From a virus: a stretch of DNA of 64,000 nt. A program made the translations under genes and the position numbers. Below the pieces are notes generated by a model. It made no database searches. It was not told the DNA's origin and saw only the letters and a list, made by a program, of their open reading frames with translations. The DNA lies in the IMG/VR virus record IMGVR_UViG_3300023179_007063, positions 33,088 through 97,087 of that record. One strand, 5' to 3'. Of the stretch, positions 16,859 to 64,000 are shown piece by piece (within the stretch, counting starts at the first letter, position 1; every line of letters starts with the position of its first letter).

Positions 16859-16885
16859 AGTGTGGTACCTTATGTCAAGGTACAC

Positions 16886-17022
16886 ATGAAGATAGCAGGT
16901 ATTTGGTCAGGTCACGATTGCTCGTATTGCATACTTGATTCCGGAAAACCGGTTGCTTCTTGGGAACCAACATCGACTATTTATACTTTCCCGAGTACAA
17001 CAAGATCTTGAGGAGAAAGTGA
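16886..17022 (+). pseudogene. carbamoyltransferase remnant with large internal deletion
   Basis: Frame 1 from ATG 16886 encodes MKIAGIWSGHDCSYCILD, the N-terminus of NodU/CmcH-type carbamoyltransferases ('MKI.GI..GHD.S..ILD.GK'). From about 16954 a different frame encodes CFLGTNIDYLYFPEYNKIL and stops at 17020-17022. That matches the C-terminal end of the same family ('..CF..T.IDYLV.GN..L'). Only about 25 N-terminal and 22 C-terminal codons remain out of some 550, joined out of frame near 16951-16960. The stop still overlaps the GTG start of the next gene as GTGA, so the deletion was clean. The family assignment is by eye from two short ends. Confidence 0.7.
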
Positions 17023-18886: not shown

Positions 18887-18889
18887 ACA

Positions 18890-22078: not shown

Positions 22079-22701
22079 GAATTATCAAGCAAAAAGAATT
22101 CAATGAACCTTCTAGAAGAGTAGGGCCAAAAAAAGACGAATGCTACTACTTGAAGGCGTTATACAGCACACTTGTTCATTTTCGACCAAAAGTATGTCTA
22201 GAGATAGGCACACATACGGGAAAATCTTCTCGAGTTTTTCAGAAATACTTTGATGATTACATGCCCGACGGATTGTTAATTACATGCGACATCAAAAAGT
22301 ATGTTGATCTCTCAAGTCTTAAAAATGTAAGACAGATCATAGTATCACATCACATACCAGATATTGATCGACTTCACAATGTAGATTCAGCGAGTCTTGT
22401 ATTCAACGACAAAGAGTCAACAAAGACCAATATAGATCTCATAAAGAAAGAGTCTCAGTTGTACGACTTTGCATTCATTGATGGCGATCACACTAGAATC
22501 TCATTCCTAAAAGATTTGGAAATATGCGAGTCTGTGCTGTCTCATCCTATGAACATTCTGATAGATGACACGAAAGAACCTGTACACGAATGCAAATCTG
22601 TGTATGAAAATGAGATAAGAAAATCGAGTCTATACGAATGTTATGACTTTGAAGACTGGGATGTATTTGTTGGATGCTCTTTAATAAAGAGAAGGTCATA
22701 A
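22075..22701 (+). CDS. class I SAM-dependent methyltransferase
   Basis: I chose ATG 22075 (MRIIKQKEFNEPSRR), which overlaps the previous stop as ATGA, over an ATG 30 bases upstream inside the previous gene. The 208-aa product has motif I VCLEIGTHTGKSSRVFQ and the Methyltransf_24-type FAFIDGDHTRISFLKD, matching the first methyltransferase of the cassette (IYIDGDHSYEG). The likely substrate is a sugar or lipid-linked glycan. It is noticeably more AT-rich than the enzymes around 23.3 kb. Confidence 0.78.
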   Translation: MRIIKQKEFNEPSRRVGPKKDECYYLKALYSTLVHFRPKVCLEIGTHTGKSSRVFQKYFDDYMPDGLLITCDIKKYVDLSSLKNVRQIIVSHHIPDIDRLHNVDSASLVFNDKESTKTNIDLIKKESQLYDFAFIDGDHTRISFLKDLEICESVLSHPMNILIDDTKEPVHECKSVYENEIRKSSLYECYDFEDWDVFVGCSLIKRRS

Positions 22702-22704
22702 GAA

Positions 22705-23268
22705 ATGGGAAGTCTAGATAAGAACGTTCTTGCAAGCATATTGAATAGTCACAACGCAGCTTTAGAAGACTTCCCAATTTTTATAGAGACGGGAACTCAT
22801 TTAGGTACGACTAGCGCAAGGATGAGTTCACTTTTTAGAGAAGTTCACACAATTGAGATATCCGATCTTTATTACGAAGAATCGAAAAAGTCGCTTAATA
22901 GACTACAGAACGTAAAAACTTATTTGGGTGATTGCGTAGATTTGCTTCCGTCGATACTTTCATCTTGTGTTGGAAATACAGTCTTTTGGCTTGATGGTCA
23001 CTGGTCTGGCGGGACGACGGGGAGAGGTAAAGATGATTGTCCTGTTCTCGATGAATGCAAAATAATAAACAACTATTTGAGTCAAACATGTTCTAAGTCT
23101 ATCATAGTAATCGACGACTATAGACTGTTTGGTGAAATAAAAGAACACAATTGGAAGAACATCACCGTCAATAATATCAGATCGATCTTTCCAATTGAAA
23201 AGATTCGTACTGATATGATTAACAATAAGGTCGACTGCTACAGCATCTGTGTCTCTTACGAGAAATAA
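22705..23268 (+). CDS. SAM-dependent methyltransferase-like protein
   Basis: The 187-aa protein has a motif-I-like IFIETGTHLGTTSARMS, an acidic strand HTIEISDLYYEES, and TVFWLDGHWSGGTTGRG in place of the usual 'IDGDHSYEG', then a strand SIIVIDDYRLFG. It therefore keeps the Rossmann fold and probably SAM binding, but its active-site loop differs from the two other methyltransferases of the cassette. An AGAAGG lies before the ATG. The alternative is a non-methylating Rossmann protein of the same superfamily. Confidence 0.65.
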   Translation: MGSLDKNVLASILNSHNAALEDFPIFIETGTHLGTTSARMSSLFREVHTIEISDLYYEESKKSLNRLQNVKTYLGDCVDLLPSILSSCVGNTVFWLDGHWSGGTTGRGKDDCPVLDECKIINNYLSQTCSKSIIVIDDYRLFGEIKEHNWKNITVNNIRSIFPIEKIRTDMINNKVDCYSICVSYEK

Positions 23269-23289
23269 ATGCATACCAATAACAATCAT

Positions 23290-24273
23290 ATGAAAAAAGC
23301 GCTTGTTTGTGGAGCAGGTGGATTCATAGGATCACACCTCGTGAAGTGTCTCAAGAGAGAGGGATACTGGGTGAGAGGCGTTGATCTAAAACACCCAGAA
23401 TATTCTTCTACAGCAGCTGATGAGTTTGTCATTGGAGATTTGAGAGATTTGTCTACTGTGGTTTCTGTCTTACACACAGATACTTCTTGGGGCAGGGGAT
23501 TTGACGAGGTGTATCAGCTAGCCGCAGATATGGGTGGAGCAGGTTATATCTTTACGGGTGAAAACGACTCCAATGTGATGCACAACTCCGCAACAATCAA
23601 CCTTAATGTCGTTTCCTCAGTAGTCAAATTCAAGGTGATGCCCCGTGTCTTCTACTCCTCATCAGCTTGCATGTACCCAGCTTACAATCAAGAAGATCCT
23701 GAGAACCCAAAGTGCAGTGAAGAGTCAGCTTACCCAGCAGCTCCGGACAGTGAGTACGGCTGGGAGAAGCTCTTCAGTGAGCGCTTATATCTTGCGCACT
23801 CAAGAAACTTCGGTCTCCAAGTTCGAATTGCCAGATATCACAACATTTTCGGGCCAGAAGGAACCTGGAGGGGTGGCAAAGAGAAAGCTCCTGCAGCGAT
23901 TTGTAGAAAGGTGGCAGAAGCAAAAGACGGTGATGAAATTGAGGTGTGGGGTGACGGTCAGCAGACCCGATCTTTCCTCTACATCGATGAATGTGTAGAA
24001 GGAACTCGAAAGCTCATGGACTCTAATTTCGAAGGACCTGTCAACATTGGATCCGATGAGATGATCAAGATACAAGATCTTGTGAAGATGGTAGCATCGT
24101 TGGCTGGGAAAGATATTCGCATCAAGAATGTTACGGGACCCATAGGCGTCCGTGGAAGAAACTCAGACAACAAGCTAATCGAAGAGAAGCTTTGTTGGAA
24201 ACCTACATCATCGTTGAAAGATGGCATCGTCAAGACTTATGAATGGATATTGAATCAAGCAAGCAAGTCATAG
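23290..24273 (+). CDS. GDP-mannose 3,5-epimerase-like SDR enzyme
   Basis: I start at ATG 23290 (MKKALVCGAGGFIGSHLVK), where the Rossmann strand begins; an upstream in-frame ATG (23269) directly follows the previous stop. The 327-aa protein has GAGGFIG at 8-14, SSSACMYP at 123-130 with Cys127 in the position of the catalytic Cys of GDP-mannose 3,5-epimerases, and Tyr156-x3-Lys160 in SEYGWEKLFSERLYLA. EGTWRGGKEKAPAAICRK and DGQQTRSFLYIDECVEG are strongly family-specific. The enzyme makes GDP-L-galactose and GDP-L-gulose from GDP-mannose, supplying donors for the cassette's glycosyltransferases. Confidence 0.9.
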   Translation: MKKALVCGAGGFIGSHLVKCLKREGYWVRGVDLKHPEYSSTAADEFVIGDLRDLSTVVSVLHTDTSWGRGFDEVYQLAADMGGAGYIFTGENDSNVMHNSATINLNVVSSVVKFKVMPRVFYSSSACMYPAYNQEDPENPKCSEESAYPAAPDSEYGWEKLFSERLYLAHSRNFGLQVRIARYHNIFGPEGTWRGGKEKAPAAICRKVAEAKDGDEIEVWGDGQQTRSFLYIDECVEGTRKLMDSNFEGPVNIGSDEMIKIQDLVKMVASLAGKDIRIKNVTGPIGVRGRNSDNKLIEEKLCWKPTSSLKDGIVKTYEWILNQASKS

Positions 24274-24275
24274 AA

Positions 24276-24956
24276 ATGATATGCTACATTCACTATATGA
24301 TCTCGAATGATCCTGACAGATCAGATCAAATTTTCAGAGAGATATACGACAGGTTGCAATCTTCATCACTTTTACAGAAGCTCTCTGATGTAAAAATTGT
24401 AACTGTAGGAAACCACAAATCTCTAAAAACAAACTTTGGCGAGTATGAAAAAGCTCAACAAGTAGATCACAAAGAAAACGTCTTTGAGTACGAGTTTCCA
24501 ACTCTCTCTAGAGTATACCAAGATGCACAACTTCTAGACGGCGACACTCCCATCTTGTATCTTCATCTAAAAGGAGCTTCAAAGCCCAAGAATCACTCTG
24601 ATGATTCTTGGAGAGAAAGAATGATGGTCGGCGTTCTGGATAAACATGTAGAATGTCTTGAAAGTTTGCAGAATATCAGAGTCGTAGGCATCGATCTAGC
24701 TCGAGTAAAAATGAACGACGGAGAGACATGCCCTGCATATACGGGAAATTTCTGGTGGTCATCTGCAAGACACCTATCGTCACTACCCGACCCATCAGTT
24801 GAAAGCATTAAGAAGTCACATGGACATCTAGTAAAGAGTAGAACCAGCAAGAATCCGTCATCTCCGCGTGGCGATAATCACAGATACCTTGCAGAATTTT
24901 GGGTTTGCATGAACAATCTTGATAATCCTGCTGGTCTAAGTGTACTATCGGTCTAA
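24276..24956 (+). CDS. uncharacterised glycan-cluster protein (GT-like)
   Basis: I favour ATG 24276 (MICYIHYMISNDPDRSD), just past the previous stop, where the first beta strand begins; an ATG at 24243 would overlap the epimerase by 31 bases. Diagnostic segments are PILYLHLKGASKPKNH, SWRERMMVGVLDKHVECL and AYTGNFWWSSARHLSSLP. The 'Y.H.KGAS' plus 'NFWW' pair occurs in a family of uncharacterised proteins that sit in glycan clusters and resemble GT-A enzymes. The stop overlaps the next ATG by one base (TAATG). Confidence 0.6.
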   Translation: MICYIHYMISNDPDRSDQIFREIYDRLQSSSLLQKLSDVKIVTVGNHKSLKTNFGEYEKAQQVDHKENVFEYEFPTLSRVYQDAQLLDGDTPILYLHLKGASKPKNHSDDSWRERMMVGVLDKHVECLESLQNIRVVGIDLARVKMNDGETCPAYTGNFWWSSARHLSSLPDPSVESIKKSHGHLVKSRTSKNPSSPRGDNHRYLAEFWVCMNNLDNPAGLSVLSV

Positions 24957-25924
24957 TGATCACATTTTTTGGTCTGAATGATAGAGATCACATACAAGAA
25001 TTCCAACACCGCTTGTTGGAAAGAAATGTTGGTCCTGATAGCGTGCATGACAAAAGTCTATCTACAGAATCCATAGGAAGAAATCTTTCTGCCTTCGTGT
25101 GGCAAGAAGATGGAAAAAGACTGCTCGTAATACTAGACGTCGACGACGGTAGCGGAGGAACACCTGCCGACTGTAAGATAGTCTGGCCGTCTTACAACAA
25201 CATACTTCATCGTTATAGACCTCACGACGTAATGGTGTTGAAGTCACAGGTTCATCCCGTAGATGAGTACAATCAGTTCTATCCATTCAAAGAAGACGTT
25301 CTACCCATAGGTGTTTTTAGCAACAAAATAAAAGACGTCTTCAGTATGAGAGAGAAATTTGCACCTGTCACAAAAGACATCGACGTCTTTTTTGCGGGCG
25401 GTCTCAAGCATTCAAAGAACAGACCATATGCTTGGCCCAAGAATAGAGACATCAAGAGATGGTGGTCAGGAGCATCTGTCAGGGGATACGACAAGCTCTT
25501 AGAGATAAGAGAGAATAGAAGGGACATAAAATTCGAGCTATTCGACGAATCTGTATCACCAGATGACTTTTACAATCTCGTGAGAAGAAGCAAAATATGC
25601 ATCGATCTACCCGGTGTCGGTCTTTCTTCAAGAAAATTCTATGAATTCATGGTTTTTGGTAAGTGCGTTTTGTCGCTTAGACAGCAACTCACGCCCTGGG
25701 AATGCCAAGAGAACGTTCACTATAGATCAATGGGAGAAGATCTAGACTTCGAAACGCTAGAAAGTGAAATAGACAACCTCTTGAGATCAGATGAATCACG
25801 AATTGCAATAGAAGAGAATGTTCGATCGATAGAGACACAACTCACACTTGAACACATGATCACAAGAGCTGAAAGATCTATAAGAGAAAAAGCTAAAAAT
25901 GCAACCCAAAGACTCACGTACTAA
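24956..25924 (+). CDS. exostosin/GT-B-like glycosyltransferase
   Basis: The 322-aa protein has a C-terminal donor-type region KICIDLPGVGLSSRKFYEFMVFGKCVLS, resembling exostosin (GT47)-like and family 1 proteins ('L.G.G....R.FE.M..G...L'), and a central strand DIDVFFAGGLKHSKNRP. The N-terminal part (KRLLVILDVDDGSGG, CKIVWPSYNNILH) is poorly conserved. Activity on a surface or virion glycan is inferred from context. Its end overlaps the next gene by 26 bases. Confidence 0.6.
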   Translation: MITFFGLNDRDHIQEFQHRLLERNVGPDSVHDKSLSTESIGRNLSAFVWQEDGKRLLVILDVDDGSGGTPADCKIVWPSYNNILHRYRPHDVMVLKSQVHPVDEYNQFYPFKEDVLPIGVFSNKIKDVFSMREKFAPVTKDIDVFFAGGLKHSKNRPYAWPKNRDIKRWWSGASVRGYDKLLEIRENRRDIKFELFDESVSPDDFYNLVRRSKICIDLPGVGLSSRKFYEFMVFGKCVLSLRQQLTPWECQENVHYRSMGEDLDFETLESEIDNLLRSDESRIAIEENVRSIETQLTLEHMITRAERSIREKAKNATQRLTY

Positions 25925-26678
25925 CACAGTTGGAATTCTAGGGTTTGGAGAGATAGGTCGCGCTCTACACGAGGTTTATGCTTTAAGTAGCAAAAGCTTC
26001 AATGTCAAAGTCAAGGACTTAGAGAGAGATGACGGTCTGGTCGACTTAGATGTGCTAAACATAGCATTGCCCTTTAACGACTCTTTTGATTTCATTCGGA
26101 CCGTTGAAGAGGCTGCAATTCTCTCTGGGTCAAAGATTGTAATCATTCACTCTACAGTACCTGTAGGCACAACAAAGAAGCTGAAGCAGTCACTAACGTC
26201 TGCAGCGGTTTGTCACTCACCCTGCAGGGGAGTTCATCCGAATCTCTTCGAAGGAATTATGACTTTCGAGAAAATCATCGGAGCTACTTCGCAAGAAGAT
26301 GCGCGCTTGGCGTCTATCCATCTTGAAGAGCTAGGAATTAAGACGCGTATTTGTACCAATTCAGAGACTACTGAGTTAGCAAAGCTACTAGACACGACGT
26401 ATTACGGTCTATGCATTGCATTTCATGGCGAGGCTGCTAAAGCATGTGAGAAGCTTGGAGCCGACTTCGAAGATGTCATGACTTCATACAACACAACATA
26501 CAATGAAGGCTACACAAAACTAGGAAAGAAGAATGTAGTTAGACCAGTACTACATGCACCTACTAACGGCATTGGCGGACATTGCGTGGTTCAAAATGCT
26601 GAACTGTTAAAGAAGCAAATTGAGTCCGACGTATTAGATTTGATTATCTCATACAAGAAAGCTAATCAGCATGAGTAA
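25899..26678 (+). CDS. UDP-sugar dehydrogenase-like protein (short)
   Basis: The 259-aa protein has the NAD-binding GILGFGEIGRALHEV (12-26), IVIIHSTVPVGTTKKLK, and the family's catalytic Cys loop NGIGGHCVVQNAELLKK (Cys near 225). It matches the first two domains of UDP-glucose/GDP-mannose dehydrogenases but ends before the C-terminal UDP-binding domain and is far shorter than the usual ~430 aa. The HSPCRGVHPNLFEG segment is unusual for UDP-glucose dehydrogenases. It may form uronic acids, or be a specialised paralogue working with the next gene. The start overlaps the preceding gene. Confidence 0.72.
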   Translation: MQPKDSRTNTVGILGFGEIGRALHEVYALSSKSFNVKVKDLERDDGLVDLDVLNIALPFNDSFDFIRTVEEAAILSGSKIVIIHSTVPVGTTKKLKQSLTSAAVCHSPCRGVHPNLFEGIMTFEKIIGATSQEDARLASIHLEELGIKTRICTNSETTELAKLLDTTYYGLCIAFHGEAAKACEKLGADFEDVMTSYNTTYNEGYTKLGKKNVVRPVLHAPTNGIGGHCVVQNAELLKKQIESDVLDLIISYKKANQHE

Positions 26679-27606
26679 GTCAATTGCAGTTATTGGTCAA
26701 GGATTCGTCGGCGGGTCTCTCACCACAGTATTTTCTGAGAGAAACTTTGAAGTCTATGCCTATGACAAAGCAGGCAACTACGCAACGGGAGCCTGGAGAA
26801 GCGGCGAAGACGGAACGAGACTGCCACAAAGGCCAACATCCATCAAAGACCTAGTTGAACTTTGTGAATCAAAAGAAAACTTTTCCAACGTCTACTTCGT
26901 GTGTCTTCCGACTCCCATGTACGAGGACGGCTCGGCGGACCTCAGAATAGTGGAAGGAGTGCTAGAGGAGTTAGCATCTGTCCCTGGTGAGAGGATCGCA
27001 GTTGTCAAGTCCACAGTTCCACCTGGTTCTACAGAGAAGTGGAACGAGGCGTTCGGACCTCGAGGTCTCCACGTGGTCTTCAACCCAGAGTTCCTCACAG
27101 AAGCCAACGCGCTTGATGACATGCGCAACCAGAACCGCATCATCCTCGGCGGACCTCGTCCTTGGATCAACGAAGTAAAGCAAGTCTTCCAGACTGCATT
27201 CCCGAAGGTTCCACTAATCAAAACGTCTAGCACTACGGCTGAAATGGTGAAGTACATGACCAACAACTTCCTCACCGTCAAGGTAGCCTTCGCTAACGAG
27301 ATGGCACAGATCTGCGAGGCTCTAGACAAATCCGGTCTAAATGTGGACTATGACAAGGTGGTCGAATATGCGAAGTACGACAGGCGCCTAGGAGAGAGTC
27401 ACTGGAGTGTACCTGGCCCTGACGGCGATCGAGGTTTCGGAGGCCACTGCTTTCCGAAGGACATTAATGCTATGATCAGAGTTGCAGAGAGTTTAGACGT
27501 GTGCCCCTTAGTCCTACAATCTGCATGGAACAAGAACAGAGAGGTCAGAAAAGACCTAGACTGGGAGAAGCAAGTAGGTCGCGCTGTCTCCAAGAAAACC
27601 TGTTAA
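26671..27606 (+). CDS. UDP-glucose 6-dehydrogenase-like protein lacking C-terminal domain
   Basis: The 311-aa protein shows the full N-terminal half of UDP-glucose dehydrogenase: AVIGQGFVGGSLTTVFSE, FVCLPTPMYEDGSADLR, VVKSTVPPGSTEKWNEAF, VFNPEFLTEANALDDM, and the catalytic GFGGHCFPKDINAM (Cys near 274). It stops about 100 residues before the usual end, so the UDP-binding domain is absent. Two such short dehydrogenases in a row may form a heteromer, or one may be decaying. GC content rises here and stays high through the next gene. The likely product is a UDP-uronic acid donor. Confidence 0.82.
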   Translation: MSKSIAVIGQGFVGGSLTTVFSERNFEVYAYDKAGNYATGAWRSGEDGTRLPQRPTSIKDLVELCESKENFSNVYFVCLPTPMYEDGSADLRIVEGVLEELASVPGERIAVVKSTVPPGSTEKWNEAFGPRGLHVVFNPEFLTEANALDDMRNQNRIILGGPRPWINEVKQVFQTAFPKVPLIKTSSTTAEMVKYMTNNFLTVKVAFANEMAQICEALDKSGLNVDYDKVVEYAKYDRRLGESHWSVPGPDGDRGFGGHCFPKDINAMIRVAESLDVCPLVLQSAWNKNREVRKDLDWEKQVGRAVSKKTC

Positions 27607-27642
27607 TTGAACTGTTGAGTCTCTGCACTGTATGGTCTTACA

Positions 27643-28458
27643 ATGCAAGACAAGTCGTCCTTCGAGATTCTTCCGACAGGAAAGCCGCACGTTTCTTTCT
27701 CTGAAGTGAAACAGTGGAAGGAGTGCTCCTTCCGACACCACCTCGTTCACGTCAAGAAGCTCGATGTCTTCAAGCCTTCACCCGTGCTAGAGTTCGGTAC
27801 TGCAGTACACGCGGCGTGCGAGGACTACCTGTTGACACGCGTCATGAAGGTAGAGATCGCACACGCAGCGATACAGGACGCCTGGAAGAAGAACGAAAAT
27901 ATCGAAGAATTCAACGAGCGTTCCCTCAATGAGGCGCTCAGAGATTCTTCTGCCATACTCTCTGAGGTCCCGGCGTTCCTCGATGAGACCTTTCCCGAGT
28001 GGACCGTGGTGGACGCTGAACACGAACTCTATGAGTCCATCGAGGGTCATCCGCACGCCTTCAAGGGATTCATCGACGGAGTCATCAAGGCGAAGGGCAA
28101 GAAGGGAGAGGACCTCTACTGGATCCTCGACTGGAAGACCTCTGCGCGAGGCTGGTTCCGCGAGAAGCGGTCAGACGACATGGTGAAGGCGCAGTTGGCG
28201 CTCTACAAGAACTTCTGGCACAAGAAGAATCCCCAGGTCCCGTTCAAGGACATCCGTTGCGGTTTCGTCATCCTCAAGAAGAGTGGTAAGCCTGGTACTC
28301 ACTGTGAACTCTTCACCGTTCCCATGGGTGAGGTCCCCATCACGCGGTCGCTCAAGGTGGTGAGTAACATGATCGCATCTGTCAAGCGGGGCATGTCAAT
28401 CAAGAACAAGAGTTCATGCACGTACTGTGAGTTCCGAGAGACAGAACACTGTCCGTAA
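27643..28458 (+). CDS. Cas4/AddB-like Fe-S PD-(D/E)XK nuclease
   Basis: The 271-aa protein has the RecB-family layout: FSEVKQWKECSFRHHL at 19-34 with Cys28, GTAVHAACEDYL at 52-63, and the catalytic pair GFIDGVI / WILDWKTSARGW (D and DxK). It ends with SCTYCEFRETEHCP, giving Cys259, Cys262 and Cys270, which with Cys28 would hold a 4Fe-4S cluster, as in Cas4 and AddB. It probably acts as a DNA exonuclease or in recombination. It is unrelated to the sugar enzymes around it and is clearly richer in G+C. The group I intron begins just after its stop. Confidence 0.85.
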   Translation: MQDKSSFEILPTGKPHVSFSEVKQWKECSFRHHLVHVKKLDVFKPSPVLEFGTAVHAACEDYLLTRVMKVEIAHAAIQDAWKKNENIEEFNERSLNEALRDSSAILSEVPAFLDETFPEWTVVDAEHELYESIEGHPHAFKGFIDGVIKAKGKKGEDLYWILDWKTSARGWFREKRSDDMVKAQLALYKNFWHKKNPQVPFKDIRCGFVILKKSGKPGTHCELFTVPMGEVPITRSLKVVSNMIASVKRGMSIKNKSSCTYCEFRETEHCP

Positions 28459-28473
28459 TACTTCAGCGTTGTT

Positions 28474-29000
28474 TCATTTCATGAGATAGTTCTTATAGAA
28501 TTATCGACACTGCAATCCTGAAAGTATGAGTCCAATTTTTTCCATCATGTCAAAAATGCATGCCCACGAGATATGGACAAACGATGCAAAAAGACTGGAA
28601 ACAATTGCTTCGATAGGGTATAGAATCCTCGTCATACGGGAGAGCGAATACAAGAATGGATCTTGGGTTGATAAGCTCGACCGATGGCTGGAGGAAAATG
28701 GAAAAGAAAAAGATATTGATACTGTCAGACCATCCGTGAACGACCACAGCTCAGCGGATGTAAAATTGGGTGAATTGCTGGAAACTCGTGGGATAGACAC
28801 CACAGCGTGACTGGAAACGGTGAGCGCGAAGGTCAAAAAGTCTTACTATACGACAATCAGCAGCCAAGCTCCTAAGGAGAAATTCTGGAGAAGGTTCAGA
28901 GACTACGGTTAGCCTAAATCAAAAAGACACGGCAATGATCCGACAGCGCCCAACACCAAATCAAGTATGGTGATGATATAGTCCAAAACTTTTTGTAAAG
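28474..29000 (+). ncRNA. group I intron carrying an endonuclease-like ORF
   Basis: The 3' core is readable: P3 TTGGGTG (28766-28772) with CGCCCAA (28947-28953), P4 TTGCTG (28775-28780) with CAGCAG (28858-28863), P7 GACTA (28901-28905) with TAGTC (28979-28983), P8 CACCA (28954-28958) with TGGTG (28968-28972), the six-base J8/7 ATGATA, and a short P9 hairpin at 28984-28995. G29000 would be the terminal G. The best 5' site is after T28473: a 10-bp P1-like stem (28468-28477 with 28481-28490) puts that U against G28485. Splicing there joins codons for SVILQRC in frame to LSTSGVGTQ of the following glycosyltransferase. Boundaries are inferred; the core is strong. Confidence 0.75.
28526..28810 (+). 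CDS. truncated homing endonuclease-like ORF inside the intron
   Basis: The 94-aa ORF starts MSPIFSIMSKMHAHEIWTND. AHEIWTNDAKRLETIASIGY followed by RILVIRESEYKNGSW matches the C-terminal part of Vsr/PD-(D/E)XK-like homing endonucleases ('.W..D..R...I...GY.V..IWE.E'). The N-terminal catalytic part seems lost, so it is probably a remnant. Its 3' end overlaps the P3 and P4 strands of the intron core, as is common for intron ORFs. No Shine-Dalgarno is apparent. Confidence 0.55.
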   Translation: MSPIFSIMSKMHAHEIWTNDAKRLETIASIGYRILVIRESEYKNGSWVDKLDRWLEENGKEKDIDTVRPSVNDHSSADVKLGELLETRGIDTTA

Positions 29001-30214
29001 TGAGCACCTCCGGAGTAGGCACACAGGCCCGATGGCTTGTATCAGGTCTGATAGAAACAGGCAAGTATTCGTTCAGATGCTTCGGCGGAGCGATTAAGCA
29101 TGACAACTACGATACGGTCGTAGTCAACCCTGACTTCATCATCAAGCCTACAAACGGCTTCGGTGATAGAAATCTTCTACGCAAGACGCTGGCTCAGGTG
29201 AAGCCTGATGCCCTGATGCTGTTTACTGACCCACGTTTCTTCATGTGGGTCTGGGAGATGGAGGACGAGATCCACCAGATGTGCCCAATCGTCTATTGGC
29301 ACTTGTGGGACAATCCTCCCTGGCCTGAGTTCAATCGTCACATCTATGAGTCGACCGACCTCGTCAACTGCATCAACTATCCGACATACAAGATGGTACA
29401 CGAGAGGTTCCCAGAGAAGACAAACTACATTCCTCACGCTGTTCCCGAAGATCTATACAAGCCGCTTCCGAAAGAAGACGTTAGGAAGTTCAAAGCAGCG
29501 CTCTTAGGCAATGAAAAGGTCGACCACTTTACGCCGATGTACGTCAGTCGTAATGCGAGGAGAAAAGTTCCGAGCGACATCATAGAGTCGTGGAAGATTT
29601 TCTTGGATGACCTTGAGGCAAAGTACGGCCACAGGAAGGCGACTCTGATCCTCCACACAGACCCACTTGATCAAGAGGGAACAAATTTATTTATGCTTGT
29701 CGACCTCTTTGGCGTGAAAGACAACGTCGTCTTCTCCAAGGAGAGAATAGGCTTCCAGGAGATGAGCACCCTCTACAACGTTTGCGACTGTGTCGTCAAC
29801 CGGTCTATGAATGAGGGCTTCGGTCTACCTGTTCTAGAGTCGATTCTATGTGGCAAGCCGCCGATAGTTGTGAAGACAGGCGGTTTGACACGACAGGTAT
29901 ACGACGATGAGACAGGTGAAAAATACGGTATCGGTCTGGACCCTGAAGTTCGAACTCTCGCTGGTAATCACTTCGTTCCCTACATCTATGAAGACTTCGT
30001 GTCTCACAAGACTTTCGCAAATGCATTCATGGAGATGTATGAACTCGGTCCTGAGGGGAGAGCGGCACTTGGCAACAAGGCAAGAGAGAGAGCGAAGAAA
30101 GAGTATAATCTCAAGAAAGTCGTCTCTGACTGGGACAACACTCTCGATTCAACGATCTCTAGGTGGAGAGATGATAGAAAGTCCTTCGACAGATGGAGCA
30201 AGATAGAACTATGA
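29000..30214 (+). CDS. GT-B (family 4) glycosyltransferase, second exon
   Basis: Read alone, this ORF would start at GTG 29000 with no Shine-Dalgarno and lacks the first beta strand that GT-B enzymes need, although STSGVGTQARWLVSGLIE (acceptor loop and first helix) is intact. The donor motif NEGFGLPVLESILCGKPPIV (E-x7-E) is near residue 275. The missing strand is supplied if the upstream intron is spliced: the joined N-terminus SVILQRCLSTSGVGTQ aligns with SVLLRGPLLTQSGYGVHA of the next gene. The start codon of exon 1 is unresolved; CTG 28449 is the only near-cognate in frame after the TGA at 28428. It is ATGA-coupled downstream. Confidence 0.8.
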   Translation: MSTSGVGTQARWLVSGLIETGKYSFRCFGGAIKHDNYDTVVVNPDFIIKPTNGFGDRNLLRKTLAQVKPDALMLFTDPRFFMWVWEMEDEIHQMCPIVYWHLWDNPPWPEFNRHIYESTDLVNCINYPTYKMVHERFPEKTNYIPHAVPEDLYKPLPKEDVRKFKAALLGNEKVDHFTPMYVSRNARRKVPSDIIESWKIFLDDLEAKYGHRKATLILHTDPLDQEGTNLFMLVDLFGVKDNVVFSKERIGFQEMSTLYNVCDCVVNRSMNEGFGLPVLESILCGKPPIVVKTGGLTRQVYDDETGEKYGIGLDPEVRTLAGNHFVPYIYEDFVSHKTFANAFMEMYELGPEGRAALGNKARERAKKEYNLKKVVSDWDNTLDSTISRWRDDRKSFDRWSKIEL

Positions 30215-31395
30215 GCACCACCACTCTTAAGAAATCAGTACTTCTCCGCGGACCGCTTCTGACTCAGTCAGGTTACGGAGTCCATGCACGACAGATCGCG
30301 GCTTGGGCGATAGGAAGAGACGACTTCGAAGTGCAAGTACAAGCTACTCCGTGGGGTGAAACTCCGTGGATCATAGACGAAAGCGCTTGTGGTGGTCTCA
30401 TCAGAAGCATCATGGAAAGGACAGTCGACCCAGGAAATAAGCTGTACGACATCACAGTACAGATTCAACTACCGAATGAGTGGAATCCATCGCTAGGTCG
30501 ATTCAACATTGGCGTCACGGCAGCAGTAGAGACTGACACGTGCCACCCATCCTGGCCAGAATATTGCAACAAAATGTCAGCTGTGGTTGTTCCATCAGAG
30601 CATGCAAAGAGCTGCCTGTTGTCATCTGGTAAGATCACAGTCCCGATCCTAGTGATACCCGAAGCTTACAACGATGCAATCGTTGCCGCCGAGAAGACAC
30701 ACATCGATGAAGTCAAGTTCTCAACACCTTTCAACTTCTTAGTCTTCGGTCAGATGACAGGCAGCAATCCAGAGAATGACAGGAAGAACCTCTTCTACAC
30801 TGTCAAGTGGTTCTGTGAGGCGTTCAAAGATAACCAGGAAGTAGGCCTGGTCTTGAAGACTAATATGGGAAGAAACACAAAGCTCGATAGACGACTCGTG
30901 ACTAACTTGTTGCAAAATCTACTAAAGGAAGTGAGAAAGAGTGCATTTCCAAAGGTTCACCTCATTCATGGTGACATGTCAGACGCTGAGGTCGCCTCTC
31001 TCTATAGACACCCACAGGTAAAGGCCCTCTTGACACTGACAAGAGGGGAAGGATATGGTCTCCCGATACTAGAAGCAGCAGCATCAGGACTGCCAGTCAT
31101 TGCTACAGGTTGGTCTGGTCACACTGAATTTCTTAAGAATGGAAAGTACATAGAGATCTCCTATAAGCTTGACAAGATACACCCGTCAAGAGTTGATGAC
31201 AAGATCTTCGTAAATAATGCAAGGTGGGCAAATCCTTCTGAAGAAGACTTCAAGAGAAAAGCGCAGAAGTTTAAGTCTTCTGCATCTGTTCCTAAAGAAT
31301 GGGCCGAATCGATGAAGAGAGTGATCTTAGAGAAGTATTCACTAGATTCTCTCAAGCCGAAATACGACGATTTGGTGAACGGAGCTGTCCCGTGA
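30211..31395 (+). CDS. GT-B (family 4) glycosyltransferase
   Basis: I chose ATG 30211 (MSTTTLKKSVLLRGPLL), which overlaps the previous stop as ATGA, over an ATG 18 bases upstream. The 394-aa protein is a full-length GT4 enzyme: SVLLRGPLLTQSGYGVHARQ at the start, FNFLVFGQMTGSNPENDRK mid-protein, and the donor motif GEGYGLPILEAAASGLPVI. It is the last transferase of the cassette and a paralogue of the preceding intron-split gene. A GTGA overlap couples it to the membrane protein gene downstream. Confidence 0.86.
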   Translation: MSTTTLKKSVLLRGPLLTQSGYGVHARQIAAWAIGRDDFEVQVQATPWGETPWIIDESACGGLIRSIMERTVDPGNKLYDITVQIQLPNEWNPSLGRFNIGVTAAVETDTCHPSWPEYCNKMSAVVVPSEHAKSCLLSSGKITVPILVIPEAYNDAIVAAEKTHIDEVKFSTPFNFLVFGQMTGSNPENDRKNLFYTVKWFCEAFKDNQEVGLVLKTNMGRNTKLDRRLVTNLLQNLLKEVRKSAFPKVHLIHGDMSDAEVASLYRHPQVKALLTLTRGEGYGLPILEAAASGLPVIATGWSGHTEFLKNGKYIEISYKLDKIHPSRVDDKIFVNNARWANPSEEDFKRKAQKFKSSASVPKEWAESMKRVILEKYSLDSLKPKYDDLVNGAVP

Positions 31396-54869: not shown

Positions 54870-57578
54870 ATGGCGTTTAAAGACTCGCAAAGATATAGAA
54901 AAGTCTACTCGTATTACAGACCGCAACCCAGACTGACAGACAGCTTTGCGGCCGACAACGAGTTCGTCTTAGAGGCTCTACGGGGAATAGACTGGAAGCA
55001 GTCTGTGAGGGCAGCTTCCACGGCAAACATCAGTAATCTAGTTAGTGTCACTAGCATTGACGGTGTGACACTCTCCGATGAAGACAGAGTTCTCCTAAAG
55101 AATCAGTCTTCCGCTGAAGAGAACGGAATATACGTCTTCTATTCCGCGTCGGGTCTTGTTAGGTCGCTCGACGCGACGACGTCTGTCTTGACGTGCGGCG
55201 CGACGTGCTACGTTGACGAGGGAACGTCGAATGCAGGAACGTTCTGGACCTTGACAACCCCTGATTCGATAACGGTAGGGTCCACTCCACAGACATGGGA
55301 GGAGAAGATTGGTGCGGGGGGAGGTGGTGGCGGAGGAGGAAGCGGAAACTGGAATGAGCTCTCTCCCTCACCTCGACTCAACACAACAGCTTCTATTGCA
55401 ATAGCAGGAGAACTTGGTTCGACATATGCAGCACAGAGCACAGGTACAGACGTCTTCTTCTACGTCAGCGGCACGATAAAGGGCAACACACCTGTATCTT
55501 CACCTAAAGTGTCTGTCTTCGGAGGCGATGTAGTAACTAGTGGATCGCTAACAGTCTCCGGCACTGTCAAGATAGGCGGGATCCAAACGGTGCCCGTCTA
55601 CGGCGACGTCCCGGGGGTCGTCGACGCATACTTCGTCAAGTCATACAACTTCGCGTTCCCGGGAAGCTCATTTCAGTCGTTCGGTTCTCTGTATCCGAAT
55701 CTGCAGGGATCAGAAAGAGGTCACCTTGGAAACGACGGCGACCTATCAAAAATTTGGTTCGACAGGACGGGTCTGTTGCATGCAAAGATCCTTTCCGCGT
55801 CATCAATTAGTGGTTCGATCACAAAGTTGTCAGATGGAACGTCTTATCTGATAGCCGGTACGAACATCAACATCACTTCTCAGTCTAACGGCTCCATCTT
55901 AATAGCCGCATCACCCGCGGCAGGTGGAGACGGTTATTTCTACAGCGTCGCAAACGGGTCTGTCTACACGACTGGCTCTGTGGCATTCTCCGGACTGTCA
56001 GGCATCACTTCGGTGAACAACATAGGCTCCGACGTCTTCTTCTACGTCAGCGGATCCAAGGACGGTCTCAGGAAGTCAGTGTTTGGAGGCGACGTAGCAG
56101 TCAGCGGAACGGTATACGGATCCCGCTTCCTCGCCGGCACGAATCCAAGCAAAGACATCTGGCTGGGTTCTGCTTCACTCGATCAAGCACCAGGCGGGAA
56201 CATCAGCATCATCGCACAGCACGGTATCTCACCACACGCACCTGGTAACGTGCTGATCAACGCCGGCAACGTTGACTATCCCGGAGTCTCGAGTGACTAC
56301 GTAGGAAGCGTATCGATACACGGCGGTGAGGTATTCGTCTCTGCATCGAATCCAATAGATAGTCAACACAACGGGAAGCTCAATCTCACAGCTGATAAGC
56401 TTACACTAGCAGTCCATCCGGATGGCGATCCATGGATGACTTTCAAGACTCTTGCATTCTATCTCGACGAGAACGAAGGAATAGCTGAGGTCGACAGCAA
56501 GACGTGGGGATTCTTGGGAGCTCTCGGGCGCGCCAACGCCGACCTCGTCGATGTCACGCTGCTTTCTACAAGTTCGCTAGATGACGATCAAGATCTCCGT
56601 AGAGGAATAACAGCAGCGATACCCAGGGGACAGTCAAAGTACTTCTCGGTCGGCGCCTACGACGGAGACATCAGTCTCGATCCTCAGAACGTCGGTGTAA
56701 CCAAAGTCATGACGGTCTCCGACACGGGAGACGTAGCAGCTGCTGGATACGTCACAGCTAGTCTGGGCTTCTCTGGTTCTCTCACGAGGCTAGCAAGCGG
56801 TGCTTCATACCTCATTGCAGGTAACAATGTCACGATAACTTCCGCATCGAACGGCTCCATTACGATATCTTCGAACGGAGGCGGCGGAGGTGCCACAGGA
56901 CCTACAGGGCCTCAAGGTGCCACAGGACCTACAGGACCTACAGGGCCTCAAGGTGCCACAGGGCCAACTGGACCGCAGGGAGACACAGGTCCTGCTGGCC
57001 CTTCTCAGACCTATCAGAAAGGATTTGTTCTTGGCTCTGCACAGGATGGATCCGGAAACATCGATCTATCGTCCATAGGCACACTAGTTCCAGGATATAA
57101 CGCGGAAGCTGACATAGACGTATTCGTCAACGGTCAGCTTCTAGCTGCACCCGACGACTACAATATGATTTCGTCAACGGTTGTGCACATCTCAACCACG
57201 CTATCGTCTACAGACATCGTCACCGTGAGGATGCTGACAAACTCATCAACGCCTGGCGGGATCTATACGCCCGGGGCTCCGTCCACAAGCATCCAGTTCA
57301 ACGATGGAGGAAGCTTCGGTGGTAGCTCTGCGCTTACATTCGACAAAACTACAAACACAGTGACAGCACACGATGTCGTACCCGCGTCAGACTCCTCCTA
57401 CAGCCTAGGATCGGCCAACAAGAGGTGGTCCAACGTGTACACGGGCGACCTTCACCTAAGAAACGATAGGGGCGACTGGACGATCGTCGAAGAAGAAGAC
57501 TTTCTCTGCGTTGTCAACAACAAGACGGGCAAGCGATTCAAGATGGCATTGATACCCCTGGAAGAAGATCGACTTTGA
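54870..57578 (+). CDS. tail fibre with collagen-like segment and repeated fibre modules
   Basis: The 902-aa protein starts MAFKDSQRYRKVYSYYRPQP. Its N-terminal third contains NISNLVSVTSIDGVTLSDED and a poly-Gly hinge near 150 (GAGGGGGGGG). It then carries modules of the form 'SDVFFYVSG.KDG...SVFGGDV.VSG' (twice) and '(S)GS(I/L)T.L..G.SYLIAG.N..ITS.SNGSI' (twice), which recur in the following fibre genes. A collagen-like stretch of GPT/GPQ/GAT triplets occupies about 672-710. The C-terminal end (DLHLRNDRGDWTIVEEEDFL) resembles phage fibre C-termini. It starts a late fibre operon. Confidence 0.68.
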   Translation: MAFKDSQRYRKVYSYYRPQPRLTDSFAADNEFVLEALRGIDWKQSVRAASTANISNLVSVTSIDGVTLSDEDRVLLKNQSSAEENGIYVFYSASGLVRSLDATTSVLTCGATCYVDEGTSNAGTFWTLTTPDSITVGSTPQTWEEKIGAGGGGGGGGSGNWNELSPSPRLNTTASIAIAGELGSTYAAQSTGTDVFFYVSGTIKGNTPVSSPKVSVFGGDVVTSGSLTVSGTVKIGGIQTVPVYGDVPGVVDAYFVKSYNFAFPGSSFQSFGSLYPNLQGSERGHLGNDGDLSKIWFDRTGLLHAKILSASSISGSITKLSDGTSYLIAGTNINITSQSNGSILIAASPAAGGDGYFYSVANGSVYTTGSVAFSGLSGITSVNNIGSDVFFYVSGSKDGLRKSVFGGDVAVSGTVYGSRFLAGTNPSKDIWLGSASLDQAPGGNISIIAQHGISPHAPGNVLINAGNVDYPGVSSDYVGSVSIHGGEVFVSASNPIDSQHNGKLNLTADKLTLAVHPDGDPWMTFKTLAFYLDENEGIAEVDSKTWGFLGALGRANADLVDVTLLSTSSLDDDQDLRRGITAAIPRGQSKYFSVGAYDGDISLDPQNVGVTKVMTVSDTGDVAAAGYVTASLGFSGSLTRLASGASYLIAGNNVTITSASNGSITISSNGGGGGATGPTGPQGATGPTGPTGPQGATGPTGPQGDTGPAGPSQTYQKGFVLGSAQDGSGNIDLSSIGTLVPGYNAEADIDVFVNGQLLAAPDDYNMISSTVVHISTTLSSTDIVTVRMLTNSSTPGGIYTPGAPSTSIQFNDGGSFGGSSALTFDKTTNTVTAHDVVPASDSSYSLGSANKRWSNVYTGDLHLRNDRGDWTIVEEEDFLCVVNNKTGKRFKMALIPLEEDRL

Positions 57579-57611: not shown

Positions 57612-60600
57612 ATGGCACTAGTCGGTAACATATCAGGTAGCGCGTCGAGCAACTCCATCATCGGAGTGACGGGCTCTCTCGTCTTCGCGAACGCCAACAA
57701 CGCGTCTTTCCCGGCCCAGGCATCGGACACGATCTTTTACGTCTCGGGTGCGAAGGACGGGACGGCACAGTCGGTGTTCGGTGGAAACCTCGTCATATCA
57801 GGTTCTACGAGGATCAAAGGCGACCTCACCGTAGACGGCACGACGACCTACGTCAACACAGAAAACCTGCTCGTCAAGGACCCGTTCGTCCTCCTCAACT
57901 CGGGATCGGCGGGCACCGACATGGGAGTCATCTTCGCCGGTGGCAACGGTTCGAACGACGTCATCCTCGGGGTCGACAACAAGAACGGCACGGTCGCCGT
58001 CGTCACCGCCGACTCGGTGAGCGGATCCATCACGACCTACCCAACCTCCAGCACGCTCGCGAGCTTCTACGCTGCGACGTACCAGGTCGGAGCCGGTGGT
58101 GCAGATTTATCGTCAACACCCGTGGGTTACCTCAGCGGATCTGGTAGCGACGTGTGGTTGCAGGCGAGCTCTTACCTCTACCTTTCGTCTTCTTTGGTGA
58201 CTTTGACGCAAGACGCGGCGATCAGCGGCAGCCTGTCCCAAGGGCTCGGGCCCATCACGCTAGGATCTTACTCCCACGCCGAGGGATACCAGACGGTCAC
58301 ATCAGGAGCCTATTCTCACGCCGAAGGGTACCAGACGGTCACATCAGGAGCCTACTCCCACGCCGAAGGACGCAAAAACATCGCATTAGGAGCCTATTCT
58401 CACGCCGAAGGTCGCAACACCTTCGCTCTTGGCTTCGCTTCCCACGCCGAAGGGTACCAGACGGTCACATCAGGAGCCTACTCCCACGCCGAAGGAAACC
58501 AGACCAAGACTGTCGGTACAGCTGCGCATACTGAAGGGTACGCTAGCATAGCAGGCGTCCGAGGGGCAACTTCATGCAACTTCGTAAACGCATACACGTC
58601 GTCGGTTTCCGGTGACGAAACGTCGTTTTTCACAGTCGGAGATGTGGTGAGAGTGTACGACCTCGAGGGCAGCGGCAAGCCGTACACAACTTTCATACTC
58701 GACGGTCTGAGTTACGACTCTAGTGCCGGTGAGACATTCCTGTCGTCGTCGGTCTCCGTCTTCTTGGCGGAGCAGTTCATCGACGGCGGGCGCGCACTGT
58801 TCGTGAGAAACGTCGACCCGTATGGTGCAGGCACCCCGACACCCGCTTCTCACGCCGAGGGCCTGAACACTATAGCCGCGGGCTCCTACTCGCATGCTGA
58901 GGGAAGCGGTTCTATTGCTCACGGCTTCGGGTCGCACGTCGAGGGTGACAGTACAAGAGCCTCGGGAGCCTATTCCCATACCGAAGGGTACCAAACTATC
59001 ACGTTAGGAAGTCATTCCCACGCCGAAGGAAATAGCACGACAGCGTCAGGAGCCTATTCCCACGCCGAAGGTGATAGCACGTCTACGTACGGTATCGCTT
59101 CTCACGCGGAAGGAGCTGGCACCACCGCGGGAGTGATAAACTTTCCACTTAATTTGCATTCCATTTCAGGAGACTTCTGCACCGCTTCCATTGGCTCGAG
59201 CGATCTAACGTCGTTCTTCACCGTGGGGAACGTCATAAGCTCTTTCCAAGACTCCCAGACAGGAGTACCCTACCAAGAAGCCACATTGACAGGAATGAAC
59301 TACGACGGTGCCGTGACGTGGCTGACTGCCTCTCTCGGAGTCATGACCCCTGCCGCTGGCATAGTGGATTTGTCAATTGAAATTCCTCGCGGCACGCCCG
59401 GGTCTATCGAGGGTGGTGGATTTTCTCACGCAGAGGGCGACGCTTCTTTCGCGCGGGGAACCTTCTCCCATGCTGAAGGTAGCAGCGCGGAAGCGTACGG
59501 GTACGGCTCCCACGCCGAAGGGTACCAGACCAAAGCTTACGGAGAAAACTCCCACGCCGAAGGATCTGGCACGATTGCGCTCGGCCTGTACTCCCACGCT
59601 GAGGGTAGCAACACCGTAGCTTCGGGTTCTTATTCTCATGCCGAAGGGTACCAGACTACCGTGCGCACTGACGCTTCCCACGCCGAAGGTGATAGCACGA
59701 CGGTGGTCGGTTACGCTTCTCACGCCGAAGGTTCTAGCACAACAGCGGGGACGACGTACTTCCCTGGAGTCTTTACCAGCGGAACAGGATCGATAAACGG
59801 TGACGTAACGTCGTACTTTGGTGTGGGTCATACTCTGTTCCTGTGGGATAGGTCTGACTCATACGGCAACTACAAGTACTCTACGATCATGGGAGTTAAC
59901 TACGATGTCAGCGGCGACACGACGTACGTCACTTCGTCTCTCACTGACACCTATGTAGCGGGTGCAAGGTTACTCGACTTTTCGAACGTACCTCCAGTAG
60001 GAACTGACGGTACCACCGTGTCGGTAAATTCCCACGCCGAGGGCTGCCAGTCGCAGGCTTTTGGCGACAACTCCCACGCCGAGGGATCAGGAACTTTCGC
60101 GGCAGGAAACGCTTCTCACGTGGAGGGAGAAGGTGGGCAGGCGTCTGGTCACGCTTCTCACGCCGAAGGTAGCACGACTCTTGCTGCGGGCGAAAGCTCA
60201 CACGCAGAAGGATCTGGCACGACAGCGTCCGGAGTATCTTCCCACGCAGAAGGATCTGGCACGACAGCGTCCGGAGCTGCATCTCACGCAGAGGGAGAAA
60301 ACACGACAGCGTCGGGAGACTCTTCTCACGCGGAGGGCGAAGGTACATTCGCTCTTGGCGATGCTTCTCACGCTGGTGGGTTCCACACAATTGCGTCCGG
60401 GTCGAACCAGACCGTCATAGGCCAGTACAACAAGCGTAACAACACGACTTCCTTGTTCACGATAGGAAACGGCACGGGAGATGACAACGCAAGCCGCAGT
60501 GACGTTGTCAACGTGTACATCAGTGGTGTGGAAGTCACGGGCTCTACGAGGATCAAAGGCGACCTCACCGTAGACGGATCCACAACAACAGGAAGCATTT

Positions 60601-60995
60601 CCGGAGATCTTATAGTTTCCGGAAGGAGCAACCTAGGCACAGTTGTCGAGAATATTCTGACGAGCAATGGGGGTACGGGGACCGTTGCTTTCAGTCTTTC
60701 CGAACAGTCGATCTTTTATAGAAATGCACCGACCGGAAACATCACAGCTAACTTCACGAGCGTTCCTGCCACCACGAACAAGGTGATATCCACCACCGTG
60801 ATCCTGTCGCAGTCTTCTCCGGCATACATCGTGAGCGCTGTACAGATCAACGGTGTTGCTCAGACTCTCAACTGGGTGAACGGTGTAACGCCCTCCGGAA
60901 CCGCGAACAAGCACGACGCTTTCGGTTTCTCGCTGATACGATCAGGATCCACTCCGACTTGGGTGGTTCTTGGCCAGATGAGCACGTACGGGTGA
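57612..60995 (+). CDS. giant tail fibre/adhesin with about 31 SHAEG repeats
   Basis: The 1127-aa protein starts with the shared module DTIFYVSGAKDGTAQSVFGG and STRIKGDLTVDGTTTY. From about residue 215 to 925 it holds roughly 31 copies of a 14-residue motif 'Y(S)HAEG..T.ASGA', as in trimeric autotransporter (YadA/Hep_Hag-type) head domains, arranged in four blocks. Three inserts of about 70-90 residues sharing 'GD.TSFFTVG.V' separate the blocks. The C-terminal ~150 residues (TVILSQSSPAYIVSAVQING) look like a fibre tip. It probably forms a trimeric beta-roll receptor-binding fibre. GC content is higher than in the baseplate genes. Confidence 0.75.
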   Translation: MALVGNISGSASSNSIIGVTGSLVFANANNASFPAQASDTIFYVSGAKDGTAQSVFGGNLVISGSTRIKGDLTVDGTTTYVNTENLLVKDPFVLLNSGSAGTDMGVIFAGGNGSNDVILGVDNKNGTVAVVTADSVSGSITTYPTSSTLASFYAATYQVGAGGADLSSTPVGYLSGSGSDVWLQASSYLYLSSSLVTLTQDAAISGSLSQGLGPITLGSYSHAEGYQTVTSGAYSHAEGYQTVTSGAYSHAEGRKNIALGAYSHAEGRNTFALGFASHAEGYQTVTSGAYSHAEGNQTKTVGTAAHTEGYASIAGVRGATSCNFVNAYTSSVSGDETSFFTVGDVVRVYDLEGSGKPYTTFILDGLSYDSSAGETFLSSSVSVFLAEQFIDGGRALFVRNVDPYGAGTPTPASHAEGLNTIAAGSYSHAEGSGSIAHGFGSHVEGDSTRASGAYSHTEGYQTITLGSHSHAEGNSTTASGAYSHAEGDSTSTYGIASHAEGAGTTAGVINFPLNLHSISGDFCTASIGSSDLTSFFTVGNVISSFQDSQTGVPYQEATLTGMNYDGAVTWLTASLGVMTPAAGIVDLSIEIPRGTPGSIEGGGFSHAEGDASFARGTFSHAEGSSAEAYGYGSHAEGYQTKAYGENSHAEGSGTIALGLYSHAEGSNTVASGSYSHAEGYQTTVRTDASHAEGDSTTVVGYASHAEGSSTTAGTTYFPGVFTSGTGSINGDVTSYFGVGHTLFLWDRSDSYGNYKYSTIMGVNYDVSGDTTYVTSSLTDTYVAGARLLDFSNVPPVGTDGTTVSVNSHAEGCQSQAFGDNSHAEGSGTFAAGNASHVEGEGGQASGHASHAEGSTTLAAGESSHAEGSGTTASGVSSHAEGSGTTASGAASHAEGENTTASGDSSHAEGEGTFALGDASHAGGFHTIASGSNQTVIGQYNKRNNTTSLFTIGNGTGDDNASRSDVVNVYISGVEVTGSTRIKGDLTVDGSTTTGSISGDLIVSGRSNLGTVVENILTSNGGTGTVAFSLSEQSIFYRNAPTGNITANFTSVPATTNKVISTTVILSQSSPAYIVSAVQINGVAQTLNWVNGVTPSGTANKHDAFGFSLIRSGSTPTWVVLGQMSTYG
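57804..57838. repeat. 35-bp perfect direct repeat, copy 1
   Basis: The 35 bases beginning TCTACGAGGATCAAAGG are identical to 60543-60577 in the same gene. They encode STRIKGDLTVDG at both the N- and C-terminal ends of the SHAEG fibre, flanking the repeat blocks. Confidence 0.9.
58262..60385. repeat. SHAEG coding-repeat array in four blocks
   Basis: About 31 near-identical 42-bp units carrying TCCCACGCCGAAGG encode SHAEG and close variants (SHVEG, SHTEG, AHTEG, SHAGG). Blocks lie at about 58262-58545, 58848-59130, 59421-59745 and 60027-60385. The most identical units (YQTVTSGAYSHAEG, near 58287, 58328 and 58455) differ by only a few bases and could recombine. Confidence 0.9.
60543..60577. repeat. 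35-bp perfect direct repeat, copy 2
   Basis: This is identical to 57804-57838 and 2.7 kb downstream in the same gene. Recombination between the two would delete the whole SHAEG region. Confidence 0.9.
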
Positions 60996-60999
60996 TTCC

Positions 61000-62064
61000 A
61001 TGCTAGGCAGGATCTCATCGACGACAGGTCCAATCTCGGCGGCGAAGACCACCTGGACGTTCAGGTACTACCGTTTTTCCGTCACAAGGGTGCGGGATAT
61101 CACCACCGATGGGTCCTATGGGACCTACAACATCGTGGGCATAACCCAGCTCAGCGAGTTTGAACTGATGCTGATGGGAACCAAGCTGAGCTACTCCGGA
61201 GCTACGGTGACAAATCCGGGAGGGGCCAATCCGGCGGGGCAAGACGTTTCAAAGGCCGTAGATGGGGACGAGAACACTGTGTGGCTCGATTGGTCCGGAA
61301 ACGGAACAGCAGGCGGACACGCGACAGGCGCCGTGAAGTCCTGGGTGCTGAAGGTGGATTTTGGCTCCGGCGTGAGAAAGACGATAGACGGTTTTCGGTA
61401 CAAGACGGGTGGTGACGAGACTGGTCGCGATCCCGTGCAGTGGGTGCTGGAAGGCAGTAACGATGATTCTACTTGGACCGTTGTCCACAGGCAGTCCACG
61501 GATGCCACGATCACCACGAATAGAAAGGCCTACACGCAGATCTTCTACACCACTCACAACTCTCTTCCGTATGAGCCGGGGTTGTTTAGGCAGACATACT
61601 CCGGATACATGGGAGATCTCAAGGGTACTGAAGACGACGTGGGCTACTTTGACACTGCTACCCCGTTCTCGTCCGACATACAGACTACAATCATACAAGA
61701 TCCGAATACAGACGACGGAAACAATTACAGCCGCCAGTGGCTCGGCTATTTCTTGCCTGCCACCACAGAAGCTTACACGTTCTACCTCAACTCCGACGAT
61801 TGCTCCTGGATGTGGATAGGCAGCAACGCAGTCTCTGGGTACACCATAGAAAATGCCACAGTAAACAACGGTGGATTGCACGGCTTGGTCGAAAAGTCAG
61901 GAACTGCCTCTCTTGTGTCGGGGACTTACTATCCCATCAGGATCCAGTTCGGTGAGCATTTAGGCGGAGATCAAATGGACTTTAACTATTCTACACCCAC
62001 AATCACGAAGACGACGAGTGTGACGGGCAGAGTTTTCCACCATCCTGCGACAAAATCTTTTTAA
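61000..62064 (+). CDS. adhesin-like protein with F5/8-type C and PA14-like domains
   Basis: The 354-aa protein has residues ~40-165 resembling a discoidin (F5/8 type C) domain: ISQLSEFELMLMG-like ITQLSEFELMLMG, KAVDGDENTVWLDWSG and WVLEGSNDDSTWTVVHRQ, the usual galactose/lipid-binding fold. Residues ~190-340 match PA14/GLEYA-like domains: LFRQTYSGYMGDL, GYFLPATTEAYTFYLNSDDC, SWMWIG and GTYYPIRIQFGEHLGG. Both folds bind carbohydrates. As it follows the fibres by 4 bases, it is likely a receptor-binding subunit or cell-surface adhesin of the virion. Confidence 0.8.
   Translation: MLGRISSTTGPISAAKTTWTFRYYRFSVTRVRDITTDGSYGTYNIVGITQLSEFELMLMGTKLSYSGATVTNPGGANPAGQDVSKAVDGDENTVWLDWSGNGTAGGHATGAVKSWVLKVDFGSGVRKTIDGFRYKTGGDETGRDPVQWVLEGSNDDSTWTVVHRQSTDATITTNRKAYTQIFYTTHNSLPYEPGLFRQTYSGYMGDLKGTEDDVGYFDTATPFSSDIQTTIIQDPNTDDGNNYSRQWLGYFLPATTEAYTFYLNSDDCSWMWIGSNAVSGYTIENATVNNGGLHGLVEKSGTASLVSGTYYPIRIQFGEHLGGDQMDFNYSTPTITKTTSVTGRVFHHPATKSF

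Positions 62065-62107: not shown

Positions 62108-64000
<1,893 letters not shown>

Follow-up and report, generated by a model that had tools for sequence, protein, structure and literature searches.

The open reading frame (ORF) at positions 57612-60995 (plus strand) of the window, the 64,000-nucleotide stretch analysed here and part of a 97,087-base IMG/VR virus record, probably encodes a phage tail-fibre-type protein that has a YadA-head-like roll as its shaft and a small barrel plugged into that shaft three times at a fixed socket. The YadA-head-like roll is of a known kind; the domain plugged into it is unannotated. Since the insert family recurs in two dozen further fibre genes of uncultured viruses, the protein looks like a modular scaffold displaying side domains; that the fibre is modular, varies in length and bears side domains is well supported.

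Results

Architecture of the fibre gene

The ORF encodes 1127 amino acids in a frame that is open throughout. It contains exactly 31 fourteen-residue SHAEG units between amino acids 221 and 932 (58272-60407), in agreement with the figure of about 31 given in the original prediction. The exact SHAEG motif is present in 26 of these units, 30 conform to SH[AVT][EG]G and one reads AHTEG; S1, G5, A10 and G12 are conserved across the units. The motif places His and Glu at positions 2 and 4 along the array (58272-60407), possibly as a polar His/Glu-lined core, the invariance of the His being partly built in by the search pattern. The units form four blocks of 7, 7, 8 and 9 (5' to 3'), and the normal spacing of 14 residues is replaced at three places by 108, 108 and 104 residues. 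With boundaries counted from after unit position 11, the N-terminal region (57612-58271, amino acids 1-220), which carries an FYVSG..SVFGG..V.SGS module, is followed by block 1 (58272-58556, seven units, the seventh reaching to position 11), insert 1 (58557-58847, amino acids 316-412), block 2 (58848-59132, again seven units, the last to position 11), insert 2 (59133-59423, amino acids 508-604), block 3 (59424-59750, eight units, the eighth to position 11), insert 3 (59751-60029, amino acids 714-806), block 4 (60030-60407, nine units) and the C-terminal region (60408-60995, amino acids 933-1127 and the stop), all on the plus strand. The last of these consists of a cap, QTVIGQYNK..LFTIGNGT, and a terminal module; because the last ~125 residues match fibre-like proteins of Actinomycetia and Synechococcus phages, the C-terminus of the fibre is a shared terminal module. 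Three block 1 units (58272, 58314 and 58440) encode the same amino acids and differ in DNA at 1-4 of 42 nucleotides (pairwise matches of 41, 39 and 38 of 42, the best being 58314/58440), which bears out the near-identical units previously placed near 58287-58500. Judged from the sequence, they are consistent with recent unit duplication or conversion.

The three inserts, each of about 90-95 amino acids, are mutually homologous, with pairwise Smith-Waterman scores of 96, 114 and 98, where the highest values in 1000 shuffles were 58, 60 and 66 (z 10-13), and inserts 2 and 3, taken with their flanking units, are 28% identical to insert 1. The view of the gene as a higher-order repeat of block and insert, with the inserts close to where we find them, was therefore correct. 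We refer to the insert as the class-A insert domain, a name defined in this analysis. Of the motifs proposed as common to the inserts, D.TS[FY]F.VG, a central Y and G[LMV][SN]YD are present in all three, while the exit motif '(T/L)SSL' is weak and only loosely conserved. All three inserts are entered in the same register, after position 11 of the preceding unit (AHTEGYASIAG|, SHAEGAGTTAG| and SHAEGSSTTAG|), and the Gly found at position 12 in ordinary units is shifted to position 11 in the insert-bearing units of the window. The original prediction did not include this common register.

An insert family in uncultured viral fibres

SHAEG genes were collected by IMG/VR scans, and a profile HMM of the insert, iterated from six inserts, was run on the spacers between their units. 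It detected 39 distinct copies in 25 SHAEG ORFs (IMG/VR contigs and the window ORF), and one further insert (L223/L254) was detected by whole-ORF search only. The number of inserts per SHAEG ORF ranges from 0 to 4 (1-4 in the 25 insert-bearing ORFs) and that of units per block from 2 to 26; many SHAEG ORFs have no insert, and as the set was gathered by an insert-seeded search, the share with an insert is not a population frequency. A single contig can hold two insert-bearing fibre genes, as in G001 and in G007, which carries L026 and L178. A different small domain, of the VGD.I.I type, is inserted at a similar place in the SHAEG arrays of L037, L166 and L241. It could be argued that the inserts are not domains at all, but degenerate SHAEG blocks produced by repeat drift, or assembly artefacts, given the many repeats of the gene and its origin in a metagenome contig. 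This is extremely improbable: the related copies are spread over many contigs, the frame is open throughout, the register is common and the predicted fold is coherent, and the recurrence of the insert in independent contigs effectively refutes it.

Known families and genomes provided no counterpart of the insert. Pfam and PHROGs family searches with the single window inserts gave no convincing match, eight insert relatives gave isolated matches only (best PHROG E 0.002, one member), an NCBIfam search with one relative gave none, and the insert profile produced chance-level matches only among PDB sequences. A tblastn search of 50,697 GenBank phages with two inserts of the window, one from a relative and an approximate consensus sequence found no real match; the matches of insert 1 at E 0.3-2 are MazG and regulator genes and were discarded as noise. 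None of the GenBank phage SHAEG genes examined has a class-A insert, and a SHAEG pattern scan of bacterial-genome contigs gave at least 11 SHAEG ORFs, with a class-A insert in none of the matches listed.

The shift of Gly to position 11 marks the insertion site in relatives as well. In a comparison restricted to loci found by patterns that do not touch positions 10-12, which avoids circularity, Gly11 is present in 25 of 27 insert-bearing units, as against 4 among 323 distinct ordinary units in those ORFs (Fisher p 8e-32, a nominal value because related sequences are not independent); the contrast is near-absolute. The insert tree, in which many forks are poorly supported and branches are long, groups the three window inserts loosely (84/58) with those of L003, L010 and L161. 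In this tree L039 has three close insert copies, and different subclades are mixed inside single proteins (L019, L021, L026, L178, L230 and L232), so that on tree evidence both duplication and exchange of inserts seem to occur.

Which part of the fibre varies

The inserts had been suggested to be the receptor-binding or variable parts, that is, determinants of receptor specificity which diversify faster than the shaft. The 28% identity of the later inserts of the window to the first favours this suggestion, and the different subclades within one protein are consistent with an exchange of binding modules. Related pairs of fibres argue against it. L003 and L010 are 94% identical in the N-terminus, 91% in the C-terminus and 80% in the insert, but only 64-67% in the blocks; inside their units, identity is 88% at consensus positions and 38% (76/198) at variable ones. 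In L020 and L232 the inserts are 66% and 53%, the C-terminus 91% and the variable unit positions 33% (8/24) identical. In both pairs the insert is therefore better conserved than the variable roll positions, which makes the roll surface, and not the insert, the fast part there; the comparison covers two pairs only, and some of their units may be aligned out of register. The description of the inserts as the variable parts is thus contradicted in these two pairs, and we regard their being the receptor-specificity determinants as unlikely.

The shaft also varies in length. L003 and L010 differ by the gain or loss of one whole unit (14 amino acids), L020 and L232 by a 42-amino-acid (three-unit) gap in the first block, and other pairs differ by large changes in unit number, such as 22 against 42 units in L162/L190. 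The inserts belong to one family across many relatives rather than having unrelated folds, and block number is not invariant among these relatives.

The conservation of the inserts relative to the roll surface would suit a purely structural role, in which, instead of binding a receptor, they would brace or bend the shaft, keep it in register or touch neighbouring fibres. There are parallels for such a role in HIN2, a head-insert motif (HIN) of trimeric autotransporter adhesin (TAA) heads, which packs on the neck (PMC2942831), and in the barrels of GH110, which participate in dimerisation (PMC7939477). However, fibres have anything from 0 to 4 inserts and 2-26 units per block, and such free variation in number and spacing is a poor fit with a fixed bracing geometry; many SHAEG ORFs do without inserts, which also speaks against bracing. 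We consider an exclusively structural role somewhat doubtful, and prefer the reading of the inserts as side domains plugged into the shaft.

Predicted structure

A single-chain AF2 prediction covering insert 1, the unit that bears it and the following unit, made from a 37-row alignment, gave a barrel-like antiparallel domain of seven main strands (pLDDT 71.9, pTM 0.61), and the insert fold is predicted with moderate confidence to be a small antiparallel beta-barrel. In a Foldseek search of the PDB the best matches of the insert model were to GH110 (E 0.018, probability 0.97, TM 0.47); the GH110 matches lay at E 0.02-0.1 and TM about 0.5, and no PDB match passed E 0.001. Judging by the pattern of strands and the length of the match, the part of GH110 that is matched would be a barrel. 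In BFVD the model matched domains of viral tail-fibre models (E 2.9e-4, probability 1.0, TM 0.5).

A longer AF2 model, with three units on each side, shows roll turns in both flanks (pLDDT 82-92), each 14 residues contributing two strands, and the turns carry on past the insert. The proposed protrusion of the inserts is consistent with this single-chain model in that confident roll strands flank the insert; the insert itself has a pLDDT of 40-66 there. At the sequence level, Pfam YadA_head matches the fibre, best in block 4, at E 1.2e-4 and 22.8 bits, below the gathering cut-off of 25, the roll matches the BpaC head by phmmer (E 2.2e-12), and the roll sequence matches the Hep_Hag-family structure 3s6l (E 2e-4). 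Foldseek with the longer model found no YadA or LbR structure among the best 50 PDB matches, so the assignment of the roll fold draws on sequence and on the periodicity of two strands per 14 residues.

Genomic surroundings

Upstream of the fibre ORF lie fibre-type genes containing collagen repeats and a gene whose product resembles a baseplate wedge protein (PHROG 6), and downstream an F5/8C and PA14/GLEYA protein followed by a long collagen-like ORF; with baseplate and fibre-type neighbours, the gene has the tail-module setting of a phage tail fibre. The downstream protein (61000-62064), which adjoins the fibre gene, is small and adhesin-like, its F5/8C domain being of the discoidin type, and the collagen-like ORF (62132-64000), which exceeds the end of the window, has higher-order repeats of 180-198 nucleotides made of Gly-X-Y units. 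The fibre ORF, at 57612-57809, and the neighbouring fibre gene at 54870-57578 share a module around FYVSG..SVFGG..V.SGS (43%, amino acids 13-66), and a stretch similar to it is also found in L006. The search for close relatives of this phage gave only distant relatives of its baseplate-region gene (L281-L287, 29-35%), which had no SHAEG gene in the stretches searched, so the fibre gene looks accessory. A run of sugar genes at 13222-31395 includes at least four glycosyltransferases, a GtrB-like protein and a nucleotide-sugar epimerase; their number seems unusually high for a phage, and they could decorate virion proteins or alter the host surface.

Discussion

The phage fibre resembles the head of a TAA (YadA, BadA, BpaA; YadA_head, PF05658) in its 14-residue repeat with the signature of a left-handed parallel beta-roll, in sequence similarity and in bearing an insertion in a roll turn. 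In its working it is like a TAA head with side domains, yet it is not a TAA: YadA_head is the only Pfam match at E<=0.01, with no match to a membrane anchor, stalk or neck, and the inner-strand motif is SHAEG in the phage fibre but SVAIG in TAAs. The insertion that TAA heads can carry sits in their final turn, before the neck (PMC2483945), and HIN2 of the BpaA head likewise precedes the neck, against which it packs (PMC2942831). Unlike HIN1 and HIN2, the phage inserts are internal and are followed by 7-9 further units, and unlike a HIN loop they are domains of ~90-95 amino acids, up to four per fibre. The same SHAEG 14-mers are found in the 'tail spike protein' of Flavobacterium phage immuto and the 'tail fiber protein' of Verrucomicrobia phage P8625; in contrast to the window fibre, the arrays examined in such LbR_YadA-like fibres are without a class-A insert. 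In GH110, two small beta-barrel domains accompany a core beta-helix (PMC7939477); these domains I and II, barrels appended to a beta-helix, are similar to what we propose and gave the insert model its best fold matches in the PDB. GH110 differs, however, in its host fold and in being catalytic, and no sequence similarity to the insert was found.

We propose that the shaft would be a YadA-head-like parallel beta-roll with one SHAEG unit per turn, probably as a homotrimer. At three turns, the loop past the outer strand (unit position 11) would be swapped for a small beta-barrel domain, beyond which the roll would resume in register. The unit turn would thus serve as a socket, the insert-bearing unit being marked by Gly at position 11 and not 12. 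Fibre length would shift through the gain or loss of whole 14-residue units, and the inserts would behave as modules that may be gained, lost, duplicated or exchanged. The barrels, of which a trimer of the window fibre would carry up to nine, probably stick out from the shaft and may make conserved side contacts, either binding a glycan or the host surface or bracing the fibre, whereas the rapidly changing surface of the roll, together with the C-terminal tip, would contribute specificity. More tentatively, it is quite possible that the SHAEG fibres of uncultured phages form a general display system with a fixed-turn socket, in which modules are added, dropped and swapped between several fibres of a genome and unit turnover would alter the length and surface of the roll. 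The socket would accept the resident insert family and perhaps other small barrels, as in L037, L166 and L241.

Our results define a domain that recurs in environmental phage fibres and has no annotation, together with a rule for the site at which it is plugged in. This rule supplies natural boundaries for isolated expression of the domain. It would also assist in assigning function to unannotated fibre proteins, which form a large class, and in comparing the evolution of the shaft length, the roll surface and the side domains. Our results further suggest that the host specificity of these phages may be located in the roll surface or the tip of the fibre, rather than in its conspicuous inserts.
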